Origin: a cyanobacterium endosymbiont of Rhopalodia gibberula
GTDB taxonomy: Bacteria > Cyanobacteriota > Cyanobacteriia > Cyanobacteriales > Microcystaceae
Direction of reading: 5' to 3'
DNA length: 64,000 nt
Assembly: GCF_003574135.1 (NCBI RefSeq)
Contig: NZ_AP018341.1
Span: 62,001-126,000 of the forward strand
The notes beneath the pieces were generated by a model. It saw only the letters and a program-made list of their open reading frames with translations. It made no database searches and was not told where the DNA came from. The position numbers and the translations under genes are program-made. The first letter of the stretch is position 1, and every line of letters begins with the position of its first letter. Shown one piece after another: positions 34,229 through 42,825 of this stretch.

Positions 34229-34540
34229 CTTTAACCGGATTACCCGCAACTGCACTGCCTTTGATGTTCCATTACCTCTATAAATATAAGTTTGTTATGA
34301 TGAGATGAAACTGGGTAGGAACTCGGTTTTAGCGAAGTCCGTCCTACTCTGAGTAGAGGTCCGGTTGTGTGTCGAAAAACTTCTAAATCTCAATTACCTC
34401 GAGTAGCAAAGCCACTATGAAAACAACAGATTTGTAAGAGATAAATCTTCTAAACCTAAACTTGTGCCAAAAAAGTTAGTTAATTTTTGTCGGTTATTAA
34501 GTATACGTATAGTCAATTATAAAATTTGAGGTTAACTTCT
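34229..34540. other. 312-bp spacer with structured GC-rich island
   Basis: The spacer between tRNA-Pro and the first tic22-like gene holds the candidate small RNA at about 34308-34375, and a ribosome-binding site gagg (34528-34531) for the next gene. Confidence 0.5.
34308..34375 (+). ncRNA. Candidate small RNA or structured leader
   Basis: A GC-rich island stands out from its AT-rich flanks. It has a GTAGGA (34315-34320)/TCCTAC (34342-34347) stem closing an inner ACTCG...CGAAGT hairpin, followed by a CTACTC/GAGTAG hairpin. A -10-like TATGAT (34296-34301) sits just upstream. No open frame fits it. It could be an independent sRNA or the leader of the tic22-like mRNA. I do not recognise an Rfam family. 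Confidence 0.3.
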
Positions 34541-35305
34541 ATGAAATCATTCATCCGTAGCAGTGTCACTCTAGGATTAGTTGGAAGTTCTGTGATGATT
34601 TATTCTTTGTTAAATTCTAGTCTGAGTGTTTTGGCATTAACTCCAGAACAAATTGTACAGAAACTTAATCAAGTTCCTGTATTTACTATTGGTAACAGTA
34701 AAGAAATACTATTGTCTACCGACAATAACAAAAAAACATTTGTCACTTATCTGAGTCATCAAGATGCTCAGCAGGTTGTTGAGCAAATCACTAAAGAAAA
34801 TCCTGGAAGTAAGGCAGAAGTAATTACTATTCCTTTAGGTAAGGTTTATGAATTACTAAAAAGTAAGGAAAAAAGCAAATCCCAAGAACCTCCTGATCTA
34901 TTTACCTTTATTCCTTTAAAAAAGGAACTTCCCTCAGCTTTATCAATTCTTAAACAAGAAGATCCTAGTGCTAAAAATTTCCCTGGAATCCCTTTGTTTT
35001 ATGGGATGATAAAAGTTGATGAACAGGAGACTTTTTTGTCTATAAAAGATGGAAAGAAAAGTTTTACTCCTTTTTACTTTGAGAGAGAATCTCTACAAAA
35101 ATTAATTGACAATATTAAACTACAACAACCCAAATTTGCTTCATCTATAGAGGTTAAAGTCACTCCATTGGGAGGAATTGTTTCGGCTTTTGAAAGTGAT
35201 GACAAACAACAAGAAGACTTCGTAAAAAGTGTGGTCCTTGTCCCTTCCCAAGAATCAGCAAAGAAACTATTAGAAACATTCAAACAAAATCAGCAAACAG
35301 AGTAG
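34541..35305 (+). CDS. Tic22-like protein, first of a tandem pair
   Basis: This 254-residue exported protein resembles cyanobacterial Tic22 (Synechocystis Slr0924 type), a periplasmic chaperone-like protein tied to outer-membrane biogenesis and related to the plastid import factor. A signal peptide spans residues 1-~32 (hydrophobic core LGLVGSSVMIYSLLN, cut near VLALTPEQ). Two repeated halves follow, marked by VPVFTIGNSKEILLS and GIPLFYGMIKVDEQETFLS. The ATG at 34541 has gagg 10 bp upstream; a TTG six codons earlier is unlikely. A paralogue follows 92 bp downstream on the same strand. Confidence 0.87.
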   Translation: MKSFIRSSVTLGLVGSSVMIYSLLNSSLSVLALTPEQIVQKLNQVPVFTIGNSKEILLSTDNNKKTFVTYLSHQDAQQVVEQITKENPGSKAEVITIPLGKVYELLKSKEKSKSQEPPDLFTFIPLKKELPSALSILKQEDPSAKNFPGIPLFYGMIKVDEQETFLSIKDGKKSFTPFYFERESLQKLIDNIKLQQPKFASSIEVKVTPLGGIVSAFESDDKQQEDFVKSVVLVPSQESAKKLLETFKQNQQTE

Positions 35306-35397
35306 AAATAAAAAATCCAGTAATGCCATTAATTTATTAACATAAAGGACGATTTTCCATCAGTTTTTAATAAAAAGTATTAAATTGTTATAAAAAT

Positions 35398-36126
35398 ATG
35401 AAAACTTTGATTCGTTGGGGTGCCACTCTAGGATTAGTCACTAGTACAGTTTTGTATTTTTGCTTGAATCAGCCGCGTTCTGCTTTTGCCTTGCCTCAAG
35501 AAGAAATTTTCAAGTTACTCCGTGGAATTCCCGTATTCATGTTAGTAGACGACAAAAATGTCCCTTTGGGAGGAAAAGTAGATGAAAAAACAGTGTTTAC
35601 TAACGTTTTTATGAGCAAACAGAATGCTCATGAATTTTTGATTCAACTTGGAAAAGACAAGCCCTCTATTGCTGATCAATATAAAGTAGAACTCATCTCT
35701 TTAGGTGCAATCTATGAAGTTTCTCAAAAAAATTCTAATGAATCCCAACGATTAGCACTTCAATATATTCCTACCAAAACTGAAGTTGAGGCTGCTAAAC
35801 CTATTCTAAGTGAAGATGGGAAGGAATATAGAGGGGGCGTTCCCCTATATATCCTTAAAGGAGGACCTGATCAAAACTATCTAACAATCAAACAAGATGG
35901 GGAAACTATTGTTCCTCTATTTTTTGAAAAAAATACACTTCAACAAGTTATTGATAACCTAAAACAACAGGAATCTGATCAAGTTTCTAATATCAAAATA
36001 GAAGTAATTTTACTAGGAAATTTAATTGGTACCCTGGAAAAAGAAGATAATGAGTTTTTCAGGAAGATTCGGTTATGGCCATCTGAGGAAATGATGAGAA
36101 TCATTCAAGAAAATCGCCAGAATTAA
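35398..36126 (+). CDS. Tic22-like protein, second of a tandem pair
   Basis: The 242-residue paralogue of the preceding gene shares the N-terminal pattern (RWGATLGLVTSTVLYF signal peptide, then FALPQEEIFKLLRGIPVFMLVDD) and the second-half motif GVPLYILKGGPDQNYLTIKQ. The overall similarity between the two is moderate, so the duplication is old. The stop is 2 bp before prmC, so these two are very likely cotranscribed. Signal peptide and family indicate periplasmic or lumenal location. Confidence 0.85.
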   Translation: MKTLIRWGATLGLVTSTVLYFCLNQPRSAFALPQEEIFKLLRGIPVFMLVDDKNVPLGGKVDEKTVFTNVFMSKQNAHEFLIQLGKDKPSIADQYKVELISLGAIYEVSQKNSNESQRLALQYIPTKTEVEAAKPILSEDGKEYRGGVPLYILKGGPDQNYLTIKQDGETIVPLFFEKNTLQQVIDNLKQQESDQVSNIKIEVILLGNLIGTLEKEDNEFFRKIRLWPSEEMMRIIQENRQN

Positions 36127-38980: not shown

Positions 38981-39649
38981 CTAAAAACTACGATATTTTG
39001 TATCAACAGTCTTCAAAAGAAAAATAGATAAGGTAAAGGCGAGATAACCAACACAAAAACCAGCAATAACATCTGTTGCCCAATGAACGTGTAAATAAAG
39101 ACTCGCCCAACCCATAAAAAAAATCAAAATAGTTGATATACTATACAGGTAAATAGTTAGTTTAGGAAACTTGAATGAAATCAAATAAGAAATGTATAAA
39201 TATAGCATGAAGTTACCAGAAATGTGACCACTAGGGTAACTGTTTCCGTGAACATCAATTAATCCTGGAGCAGGACGAATTCGAGCAAATAAGGGCTTTA
39301 GAAACTTGTCAATTAAAATAATAATTCCCAGAGAAGAAACTGCTAAAACTTGGGCTTCTTTTAAGCAACGTTTCCAGAATAAAAAACCTAAACCACCTAA
39401 AATAAGAAAAATAACAACTTCAGCTTCTCCCGACAGATAAGAGACTTGCGCAAATTCAAGTAAACCAGGTTGACGAAAGTTGCGAACCCATTGTATAAAA
39501 GCTTCATCCCAAGCATCAAGATTTCCCTGAACAACCTCTTGATTCAGCCATAGTAATAGTAATAATACGCTCACAAATGACGCTAAACTCTTATTTATTA
39601 TTGCTTTGCCAATCTTCTCCATCACACTCTTTCTTAGCTTTAGCTTCAT
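38981..39649 (-). CDS. PAP2-family membrane phosphatase with altered third motif
   Basis: This is a 222-residue protein with about six membrane helices. Motif 1 is KPLFARIRP (KX6RP), motif 2 YPSGH, and motif 3 reads SLYLHVHWATD, where the family normally has R-x5-H-x3-D. The His and Asp are kept but the expected Arg aligns with Ser (AGT). Phosphate binding may therefore be weakened. The family includes lipid phosphatases acting on phosphatidic acid or undecaprenyl pyrophosphate. It lies 27 bp upstream of the ArnT-like gene and is probably cotranscribed with it. Confidence 0.85.
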   Translation of the reverse strand: MKLKLRKSVMEKIGKAIINKSLASFVSVLLLLLWLNQEVVQGNLDAWDEAFIQWVRNFRQPGLLEFAQVSYLSGEAEVVIFLILGGLGFLFWKRCLKEAQVLAVSSLGIIILIDKFLKPLFARIRPAPGLIDVHGNSYPSGHISGNFMLYLYISYLISFKFPKLTIYLYSISTILIFFMGWASLYLHVHWATDVIAGFCVGYLAFTLSIFLLKTVDTKYRSF

Positions 39650-40835
39650 ATCTAGTTAGAGGTTAAAATTTGAGTAAGTATCACCATATAATAACACTCG
39701 GATTTATAAACGGCTTCGCCACTGACTTAATCTGAGATTACTATGATCCTTTCTAAGGATTAATCATCAATAACCCTATAAGAACAAGTTATCTTAAGAT
39801 GAATATAGCGAGGTTAAACTTTTTTCATGAAATCTATGAAACTAGCACTTATGCGGTATTTTTGTTGTGTAATATATATGAAAGATTAGAGACCTCTACC
39901 AATTTACTATTAAGATCTCCAGGACCTCAAAATTCGGGTGGAACAATTTCTAATAGACAAATTTTTTTGAACCAAGAGAATTTATTAAGTCTTGTTTTAA
40001 TGGACAAATGAAGTAAATAAGCGAATATCGTCTCAATTAATTTGCACTCTAAGTTTAGATTTTATCATTCAATTAACTATTGAAGTTAGAATTTGAAGAA
40101 ATGAAGGAACAGTTAGTTATCTGTAAAATTGTTAAGAGGATTAACCTATCGTATTTTGATTCATGCCTTTATTACCGCAACCAAAATACTAGGCAGTATA
40201 GTTCGTGACTCCCGTCTTAATTGTGCCGAAGCCGGTGATGTTGTTAATGTTGAATACATTCTCATTAAAGTGATAAAAATCTCGGATAGAATTGCTCAAG
40301 ATGAGGGAGATATTGAATTTTCTAACGCACTTCCCGGTCCAAAATCAATTGCACCCAAGCTTAAAAATGATCTCCAAGCCTAAAGTTGCGCTCTTGGTTG
40401 TTTTTAATAAATCTTAAACTTGTAGCACACCGTCACCTTTAACAAGATCAGATAATACCTCTTCATTAGTTTCTATAAATTTTTCTTCTGTTCCCTAATT
40501 ATTGTTAATTTACATGAAAAAGTTTGTCGTCGTCCTGATTTAATTTAGGTCCTAGTTTTTTTATTAATCAAACGAGGCAATCTATTCTTTTAAAGAGTCA
40601 GTCAAGTAAGCTTAAATCTATTCGATTCTAGGCAACTTGACTTTACCTAGGGAAGCTATTTTATATCTTGATACACTATCAATTTACGCCCAAAAACCCT
40701 TATAACTAACTTTTAAAGATTTACTAATTTAGTTAATAACTATTAATGAATAAGCAAAAAAACAAGTAAGTCTAAATAAACTTAAAACAGAAAAAGTAGT
40801 TAAACAAAAGTGACCAGGCTAATGTTATTAGTAGT
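39650..40835. other. 1.2-kb spacer with unidentified coding remnants
   Basis: It contains the unidentified frame at 40129-40383. A minus-strand segment near 40490-40413 reads TEEKFIETNEEVLSDLVKGD and then GVLQV before a stop, which resembles the C-terminus of a lost gene. The remainder shows nothing I can name. Confidence 0.45.
40129..40383 (+). pseudogene. Unidentified coding remnant, possibly a small or truncated gene
   Basis: An 84-codon frame with GC-richer, coding-like codons than its surroundings begins with TTG and contains YRILIHAFITATKILGSI, then RDSRLNCAEAGDVVNVEYIL and SNALPGPKSIAPKLKNDLQA. The peptide looks like the helical C-terminal part of a real protein, but no ATG start or ribosome-binding site is visible, so I favour a truncated gene. 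I do not recognise the family. Confidence 0.4.
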
Positions 40836-41039
40836 AAGATTTTAAGTTTCTATTACGACGAATAACTGCATAGAAGGTACAAGTATATTTTTGACAAAGA
40901 TTTAGTTACCAATTTAGCTAAAGAATCAATAAAAACAGGGTAGATATTCAACGTAGGAATTCGATAAAAATTTTCAACTCTTGCTTCTTTAGCAATTTCC
41001 CAATATTCGATATCAATTTCTTGAAGAGTTTCAATATGT
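40836..41039 (-). repeat. Tandem duplicate of the hemH 3' end (copy B, decayed)
   Basis: About 204 bp match 41055-41257 at roughly 85% by eye, offset by 218-219 bp. In another frame it still encodes [20 protein letters not shown] and then [15 protein letters not shown], the C-terminal part of ferrochelatase. It is out of frame with the gene by two bases and contains an indel. The hemH frame runs 92 bp into it and stops at 40948. Confidence 0.9.
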
Positions 41040-42078
41040 AATGTTTTTGAGTGCAAGATTTTAAGTTTCTATTAGGACGAATAACCGTATCAAAAGTACA
41101 AGGAGGTTCTTGAAGAGATTTAGTCACTAATTTAGCTAAAGAATTAATAAAAATGGGGTGGGTATTCAACGCAGGAACTCGATAAAAATTTTTAATTCCT
41201 GCTTCTTTAGCAACTTCCCGATATTCGATATCAATTTCTTGAAGAGTTTCAATATGTTCCGAAACAAAACTGATAGGAACTACTAATAAGTCTTTGACTC
41301 CTTTTTTCCCTAACTCTTTTAAAGAATCTTCCGTGTAAGGTTTAAGCCACTCCACCGGACCAACTCGACTTTGATAAGCTAAAGTGAAATCATTTGGTCG
41401 ATTGAGGGTTTTCATGATTAGGTGAGTACAAGCTTCAATTTCTGCTTGATAGGGATCTCCGGCTTTATCAACATAACTTTGAGGGACTCCATGAGCACTG
41501 AAGAAGATATGGATATGACAAGGATTTTCACATTTATCTAATTCTCGAGTAATTAAATCGGCCATTGCTGTTAAATAATCTGGATGATCATACCAAGAGG
41601 GAATCAAAGTATAGTTAATCCGTGTGAGATCACTATCAGATTGCCACATTTCCTCAAGCACTCGGAAACTAGAGCCACTTGTGCTAATAGAAAATTGGGG
41701 ATATAGAGGAAAAATGACTAGACGCTCTATGCTGTCTTGTTTAATGTGATTGATTGCCTCTTCAGTAAAGGGGTGCCAATAACGCATCCCAATATAAATT
41801 TGAGCATCTTGACCAATCTCTGCTAATTTTTTCCCTAGAGCTTTCCCCTGAGCTTCAGTAATCCTTCTTAAAGGGGAACCTCCCCCAATTTGTTCATAAT
41901 TTTTCTTGGATTTTTCGCTTCTCAACCGAGAAATTAACCAAGCTAAGGGCTTTTGTAACCAAGGGAAAGGTAATCGAATGATTTCTGGGTCAGAAAATAG
42001 ATTAAACAAAAAGGGGCGAACATCTTGTAATTGTTCCGGTCCCCCTAAATTTAGTAGTAAAACCCCGACACGATCCAT
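40948..42078 (-). CDS. hemH: Ferrochelatase with lost CAB-like tail
   Basis: HemH inserts iron into protoporphyrin IX to make haem. The 376-residue frame has the full catalytic core: [11 protein letters not shown] at the start, [11 protein letters not shown], the active-site His in [12 protein letters not shown] and the conserved Glu in [12 protein letters not shown]. After the core comes the cyanobacterial linker [18 protein letters not shown]. Cyanobacterial enzymes then carry a chlorophyll-binding-like (CAB/LIL) helix with a WNGRLAMLGF-type motif. Here it is absent: a 15-nt junction and an out-of-frame duplicate give an unrelated Lys-rich tail ending IFIEFLR. The start ATG at 42078 fits the family; the frame is open to 42141. 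Catalysis is probably intact. Confidence 0.92.
41055..41257 (-). repeat. Tandem repeat copy A inside hemH
   Basis: This is the in-frame copy, encoding [20 protein letters not shown] through [10 protein letters not shown]. It is separated from copy B by 15 nt (41040-41054). Confidence 0.9.
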
Positions 42079-42206
42079 AATTTTATGTAGATAAATAACA
42101 TTTTCAGATTCTTTGTTAAGTTTAACAATATATAGGCTCACTATTGAGATTTCAGTGACAGAATACTCAATAATCTAGTGAGTTACATAAGTCAGGAGGT
42201 GACGAG

Positions 42207-42825
42207 TTGATCACAATTTTAAGAACCTGGAGTTATCAATATCCTTGATTACATAGCACTCTTTCTCGTTTAGCATCTCTGAATGTTGAAGGTGAAAGAG
42301 AGTTTTGTCATTTTACCATTGAAAATGTTCCTCTGAAGTCTGATACTAGGATTTGATATTTCTGCTATGGCAGAAGTCAAACCACTCACTTTCTACTGAA
42401 ACAACTTGACTCAACGTCTTATTGACTTCCCTTTGTCGGACAGTTAAAGCTGTTTTTGAAGCCAATCATGTTAACGAGTGAGCTAAACAAATGCTTTTTG
42501 CTCAATCAAAATTTGCTTGAGTTCATACCAGGTTTGTTCTTGTTGCTCTCCACAAAATGGAAACTAAGCAACTTGAGGAAATTTTTAAAAAGTTTATCAG
42601 GTTCCTAATTCTGGAGAAGTTTTTGTTGTAATTGATTTATACAAGCCGATTAACCGTTTATTTTGTCAACCTTTAACTATTTTCGTGTGAACATTTGAAG
42701 TGAAGATAGCTTAGAAGTTACTAAACACTGACTTAGTGACAAAGTTAACTTCAGTAGGTTTTTGAGATTGTCAACAACGACTTTATGGAGAAGGAAATTT
42801 GCAAGTAATTCAAGTGAAGAAATAA
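42207..42825 (+). pseudogene. UbiE-like class I SAM methyltransferase, decayed
   Basis: Across frames the plus strand reads ITILRTWSYQYP, LSRLASLNVEGERE, FTIENVPLKSDTRI, a damaged glycine loop (CYGRSQTTHFLLKQL), AKQMLFAQSKFA, then VALHKMETKQLEEIFKKF, LTVYFVNL and YGEGNLQVIQVKK with the final stop. These correspond in order to a class I methyltransferase of the UbiE type, with its conserved C-terminal GGGSLQVIQ-like end. Many stops and shifts make it dead. It ends 42 bp before yqeG. The family is clear; the substrate of the ancestor is not known. Confidence 0.78.

Follow-up and report, generated by a model that had tools for sequence, protein, structure and literature searches.

According to the consulted sections of PMC3563542, the Synechocystis ferrochelatase FeCh has a kcat of 3.4-3.7 per min without its CAB domain, against 0.66-0.78 per min with it, and the authors think that the CAB domain favours the chlorophyll branch in Synechocystis. 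The same sections state that no direct pigment binding by the CAB domain was seen in that study, and refer to other work in which the recombinant enzyme was inactive once the linker had been removed as well. For the endosymbionts of diatoms, the consulted passages of PMC12903740 (2026) describe the C-terminal extension of HemH in the spheroid body of Rhopalodia gibberula (RgSB) as dissimilar to that of Synechocystis. The extension is given there as conserved in EpSB and absent from EtSB, EaSB and RaSB, and that of RgSB is noted in a discussion of a possible regulatory role of chlorophyllide; these passages do not mention a duplication. Among the literature matches listed, PMC12903740 is the only one that joins hemH with spheroid bodies, and none joins ferrochelatase with them. 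This study adds a tandem duplication at the 3' end of hemH and its occurrence in EtSB, together with an order for the events and an origin of the RgSB tail from DNA read in the wrong phase. EcSB (from E. clementina), EtSB and EpSB (from E. pelagica) denote related diatom endosymbionts throughout; EaSB and RaSB are said to be near relatives of RgSB and EtSB.

The window analyzed here is a 64-kb stretch of the RgSB genome, which consists of a single contig of 3,020,309 bp. The hemH product scores 428.7 bits against the NCBIfam model TIGR00109 hemH, with a cut-off of 124.6, and possesses the whole catalytic domain (Table 1). The positions H200 and E278 (columns of alignment A1) are invariant across 39 sequences, and RgSB HemH has His and Glu there; we take them to be the conserved active-site His and Glu of ferrochelatase. 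Substitution rates in the catalytic part are dN 0.015 and dS 0.243 between RgSB and EcSB, and dN 0.024 and dS 0.326 between RgSB and EtSB, with dN/dS of about 0.06-0.07 in these comparisons. At the sequence level the catalytic domain is under constraint, and its completeness agrees with the view of an earlier note, made from the DNA letters, that catalysis would be kept. The linker is changed, with SCTQKHY in RgSB where EcSB has IYPQEHW. No RNA family scored above its gathering score within 39600-42600, and scans for promoters and terminators gave matches at about the level of shuffled sequences.

Table 1. Features of the hemH locus of RgSB; positions refer to the window.
Feature	Position	Strand	Details
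hemH ORF, ending in the out-of-frame tail	40948..42141	minus	397 aa, GTG start as listed
Complete ferrochelatase catalytic domain	41116..42069	minus	PF00762 profile 2-316 of 317, 404 bits
First copy (copy B of the earlier note), in hemH frame	41039..41256	minus	Repeat comparison
Second copy (copy A of the earlier note), decayed, 1-nt insertion near 40895	40820..41038	minus	Repeat comparison
New C-terminal tail of 36 codons: 7 altered-linker codons, then 29 wrong-phase codons of the second copy	40951..41058	minus	Frame comparison
Helix-less 3' sequence after the second copy, homologous to the EcSB sequence following hemH	40604..40824	minus	70.5% over 224 columns, E 3e-21

Other sequences were observed around hemH and among its homologs. 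An open frame of 84 aa downstream of hemH (40129-40383) has no match in Pfam or NCBIfam, and the region 39979-40146, touching its start, is conserved with EcSB; this may be a gene remnant. Of 29 genomes compared, 22 encode a further protein that resembles ferrochelatase but scores low against PF00762 (about 125-146 bits), for example at L031:1501-2475, where it is below the NCBIfam hemH cut-off; the seven genomes in which it was not found are those of the four diatom endosymbionts, the UCYN-A-sized one, G010 and G011.

The 3' end of hemH is present in two direct copies, 86.4% identical over 220 nt by BLASTN (E 6e-72), which bears out the tandem repeat of about 85% identity described in the earlier note. 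The copies are spaced 218-219 nt and comprise an ungapped core of 142 nt at 90% identity and less similar edges of 75 nt at 79%. Once these edges are included the two copies abut, and the 15-nt spacer that had been reported between them arises from stricter limits. The reading of the frame through VIRPNRNLK into 36 further residues stands, as does their description as a Lys, Leu and Ile-rich end translated in the wrong phase, which the frame comparison confirms; the order of copy A followed by copy B is reversed, since hemH lies on the minus strand and copy B comes first. The unit of duplication is not a multiple of three and the hemH ORF crosses the copy junction. Thirty residues of the tail correspond to an alternate frame of EcSB hemH at 93%, and the second copy retains a frame of 67 aa that still matches the Ferrochelatase profile from 270 to 316. 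A gapless scan of the window (seed 12, minimum 60 nt) gave no further close tandem pairs with an identity above 70%. Elsewhere in the window, the neighbouring genes 34523-35302 and 35374-36123 have in common a repeat of 70 nt (70%) close to the 5' end of each, and they match EtSB at 92% and 90% against 81% for EcSB, a gap larger than that for their neighbours.

The CAB-type motif (ExxNxRxA) was present at 100 of 109 hemH loci, several species being counted twice. The nine loci without it are RgSB, two records of EtSB, two records of EcSB, L125, whose motif looks normal except that the frame stops within it, and three loci (L099, L130 and L131) for which the search pattern gave no frame. The helix is kept in EpSB (EVWNTRLAI) and in the UCYN-A-sized genome G013 (EVWNGRLAM). 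The earlier note had stated that RgSB HemH lacks the CAB helix, and no C-terminal ExxNxR motif was indeed found in it; the comparison that it proposed with other spheroid bodies and free-living relatives places EpSB and PCC 8801 on the side with the helix, and EcSB, EtSB and RgSB on the side without. Relaxed selection on the EpSB helix was not apparent, as 27 of its 37 residues are the same as in PCC 8801, about as many as in the UCYN-A-sized genome (26 of 37). The HLIP profile PF00504 is insensitive here, giving no match at E 0.001 in the helix-bearing proteins of PCC 8801 and EpSB. Outside the window, an HLIP-like PF00504 match with an in-frame TAG was observed in RgSB (C1:992471-992596); its counterpart in EcSB (C1:999105-999224) is open, which agrees with the ScpB ortholog that the consulted passages of PMC12903740 report for EcSB.

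A search in all frames downstream, also proposed earlier, found no convincing remnant of the helix in the 500 nt starting near the copy ends (both copies of RgSB, EcSB and the second copy of EtSB; two helix queries). The best score downstream in RgSB was 32, reached by 2 of 100 shuffles, against 135-180 in the EpSB and UCYN-A-sized controls; this match covers the back half of the helix about 360 nt past the second copy and has no ExxNxR motif. In view of these scores, a helix encoded downstream in another frame was not accepted.

The hemH gene of EcSB has one copy of the segment and ends in EHWRGCSFLTTVLFLVYLSSLTYLLAN without a CAB motif. Over the 110 nt from the linker end, taken after the second copy in RgSB and EtSB, the sequences of EcSB, RgSB and EtSB are 67-73% identical to each other; they are 39-46% identical to EpSB and 43-57% to PCC 8801, where the value of 57% covers 87 aligned of 133 columns. 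Because these three endosymbionts have one common helix-less 3' sequence, the helix was most likely lost before they split, with the duplication following later. When the origin of this 3' sequence was sought by BLASTN of the EcSB flank against 80-kb regions of EpSB and PCC 8801, the matches were short and weak, with best E values of 2e-5 and 0.003.

The same arrangement was found in EtSB, where the second copy is more decayed and HemH terminates, without a tail, at a stop codon immediately ahead of the junction; beyond this stop, EtSB reads on in the phase of the RgSB tail. A tree of 25 genes of the region (10,070 columns) separates RgSB and EtSB from EcSB and EpSB with a bootstrap of 100, the three groupings having 129, 83 and 65 sites. 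These are 25 of the 30 long ORFs, hemH being excluded and four others dropped for missing or incomplete matches. Taken singly, 14 of the 25 genes favour RgSB with EtSB, seven RgSB with EcSB and two EcSB with EtSB, and two are tied. The species tree of four taxa was rooted on EpSB from the published statement, in the consulted passages of PMC12903740, that it is the most distant lineage. With EpSB taken as the outside lineage, the duplication would be placed on the stem of RgSB and EtSB.

Several other histories of the locus were weighed. The earlier note had proposed that the duplication itself removed and replaced the helix, and the stop that ends HemH does fall before the second copy in EtSB and within it in RgSB; however, EcSB is helix-less with a single copy and shares its helix-less 3' sequence with the other two, so that this proposal is largely contradicted and we regard it as improbable. 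An alternative to an early loss of the helix is that EcSB formerly had the second copy and then lost it. The tree of the copies themselves is ambiguous as to whether there was one event or two. Among the four copies, nine sites group them by species, seven support a shared duplication and four are crossed; their tree groups them by species with a support of 68, and in the duplicated segment the first copy of RgSB is nearer to EcSB (91.6%) than to the first copy of EtSB (87.4%). Such a pattern would need gene conversion, parallel change, two independent duplications or the loss of a copy in EcSB. Both the grouping by species and the nearness to EcSB speak for independent duplications of one segment in RgSB and EtSB at a hot spot, which we nevertheless consider unlikely. 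The junctions of the two genomes have an identical left end and right ends within about 2 nt (by eye), the obvious short repeat GAACAT would yield a unit of 213 nt with a different junction (by eye), and gene conversion between adjacent copies accounts for the species-specific sites that they share. An assembly artefact is hardly credible and was rejected, with copies about 14% apart and the decayed version present in the separately published EtSB genome.

The tail has a hydrophobic moment of 0.78, a value reached in none of 2000 shuffles of the tail. The long ORFs of the window were scanned in 543 stretches of 29 aa, 387 of them in frame and 156 in alternate frames. Only the tail and the first hemH copy, read in its alternate frame, attain this value, and the tail is the most amphipathic of the 387 in-frame stretches. 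The alternate frame is likewise amphipathic in EcSB, EtSB and the UCYN-A-sized genome (moment 0.72-0.83), where it is unused. An AlphaFold2 model of RgSB HemH has a mean pLDDT of 80.4 overall and draws the tail as two helices with a pLDDT of 42-45.

In the 29 tail codons from the second copy there are eight differences from the majority ancestor, of which seven are silent in the tail frame; the majority ancestor was used in place of EcSB alone, with which the count was 5/5 silent. Site 63 (silent) is rather a change of the first copy and site 68 (not silent) is common to both copies, and both were dropped in a strict count. This leaves six clear second-copy changes, each of which is silent in the tail frame and alters the old hemH frame. 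Two of the six are also found in EtSB, site 36 in its second copy and site 42 in its first. The matching untranslated stretch of EtSB, with sites unfiltered for ambiguity, has 7/17 silent changes, one new stop and a 1-nt indel, giving a Fisher P of 0.017 (strict) or 0.038 (loose) between the two genomes in a test chosen after the data were seen. The strict count has P of 0.0008-0.08 under three mutation models (0.005 with the empirical spectrum, 0.08 with G:C to A:T transitions only) and the loose count 9e-5 to 0.18 under four. Mutations mostly hit G and C, which are concentrated at exactly the relevant codon position, and the second-copy changes beyond the tail favour the tail phase as well (5/8). 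The excess of silent changes may be a hint that the tail is more than a by-product, and composition explains part of it.

One rival reading is that the wrong-phase tail has acquired a function of its own: as a cationic amphipathic helix kept by purifying selection, it would hold HemH to the surface of the membrane instead of the transmembrane helix that was lost. The rarity of its moment among shuffles and stretches, the two stretches that reach it both coming from hemH, the silent changes set against those of EtSB and the two helices drawn by AlphaFold are in line with such a role. We consider it doubtful, since G/C-biased mutation alone gives P of 0.08 for 6/6 and 0.18 for 7/8, the same phase is favoured past the tail, and the comparison with EtSB is post hoc, with unfiltered sites and two of the six changes recurring in its copies. 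Moreover, the tail is lost in EtSB, its pLDDT is low, and relatives already have the amphipathic pattern in an alternate frame that they leave unused. More speculative still is the idea that the duplication overprinted the end of this housekeeping enzyme with a ready-made cationic amphipathic helix, latent in its own alternate frame, which in RgSB now serves instead of the CAB-type membrane helix that was lost, and is maintained by selection. If true, a new membrane anchor would have been born in one step during organelle-like reduction; a selected tail would be a membrane-binding helix born from the gene's own alternate frame, with the starting sequence still readable in relatives. The mention of the extension beside possible chlorophyllide regulation, in the consulted passages of PMC12903740, suggests that it might be a C-terminus that senses chlorophyll(ide) in divergent form; this is very improbable, the extension being out-of-phase hemH DNA without an ExxNxR motif. 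Rather than sensing chlorophyll, the RgSB tail is most likely a by-product that is tolerated.

The genes of photosynthesis and chlorophyll synthesis give the setting of the helix loss. PsaA and PsaB are fragmented in RgSB and EcSB and were not detected in EtSB or EpSB. An open ChlG remains in RgSB, EcSB and EpSB, and EtSB has a broken one. None of the four endosymbionts yielded an intact ChlP, the RgSB gene being broken; it is present in PCC 8801 and in the UCYN-A-sized genome, which also has intact PsaA/B and keeps the helix. The fragments of PsaA/PsaB and the broken ChlP of RgSB fit the earlier description of an endosymbiont with reduced photosynthesis from which the helix is gone; RgSB is a nitrogen-fixing endosymbiont that is no longer photosynthetic. 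In the consulted part of PMC5638926, nine of ten chlorophyll a genes looked intact in RgSB. As removal of the helix raises the kcat of the Synechocystis enzyme, and the CAB domain is thought to favour chlorophyll there, its loss in RgSB should favour haem.

We propose a degenerative remodelling of hemH in two steps, loss of the CAB helix and then a frame-shifting tandem duplication, to which we give a probability of about 0.7. The ancestor of EcSB, RgSB and EtSB, after its split from the EpSB lineage, would have lost the CAB/HLIP-like helix, as the comparison of the 3' ends indicates. The ancestor of RgSB and EtSB would then have duplicated in tandem a segment of about 220 bp that reaches from the last part of the catalytic domain through the linker, probably in a single event. 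In RgSB the gene runs out of phase from the first copy into the second, because the length of the unit is not divisible by three, and ends in the 36-residue tail; in EtSB the protein is ended by the stop just before the junction. The second copy is decaying, and HemH presumably stays a working ferrochelatase, freed of the helix.

This proposal puts in order the steps by which diatom endosymbionts dismantled their control of chlorophyll: RgSB and EcSB have lost the ferrochelatase helix although both still have an open ChlG. The 'dissimilar' extension of RgSB is likewise accounted for, as wrong-phase DNA, which weakens the support that this extension lends to regulation by chlorophyllide. The change in RgSB is real but degenerative, in a known enzyme, and is better explained than before.

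Compared with known systems, RgSB HemH is most readily set beside the CAB-bearing type II (ScpA-fused) ferrochelatases, such as FeCh of Synechocystis 6803 and HemH of PCC 8801, which it resembles in the gene, the catalytic domain and the start of the linker. It differs from them in the absence of the CAB/HLIP-like helix and in its linker, which is changed in the QERWQWG part and leads into the out-of-phase tail. The engineered Synechocystis FeCh delta347, as presented in the consulted sections of PMC3563542, likewise has a catalytic domain without the helix; it is a laboratory truncation of the CAB part only, whereas RgSB combines a natural loss with a new tail. Among the relatives, EtSB HemH shares the helix loss and the duplication but stops before the junction, and EcSB HemH shares the helix loss but differs in its single copy and its short tail. 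In outline, RgSB can also be likened to the frameshift-producing tandem repeats in proteins (PMC12871928), in which a frame-shifting repeat yields new sequence as it does here.
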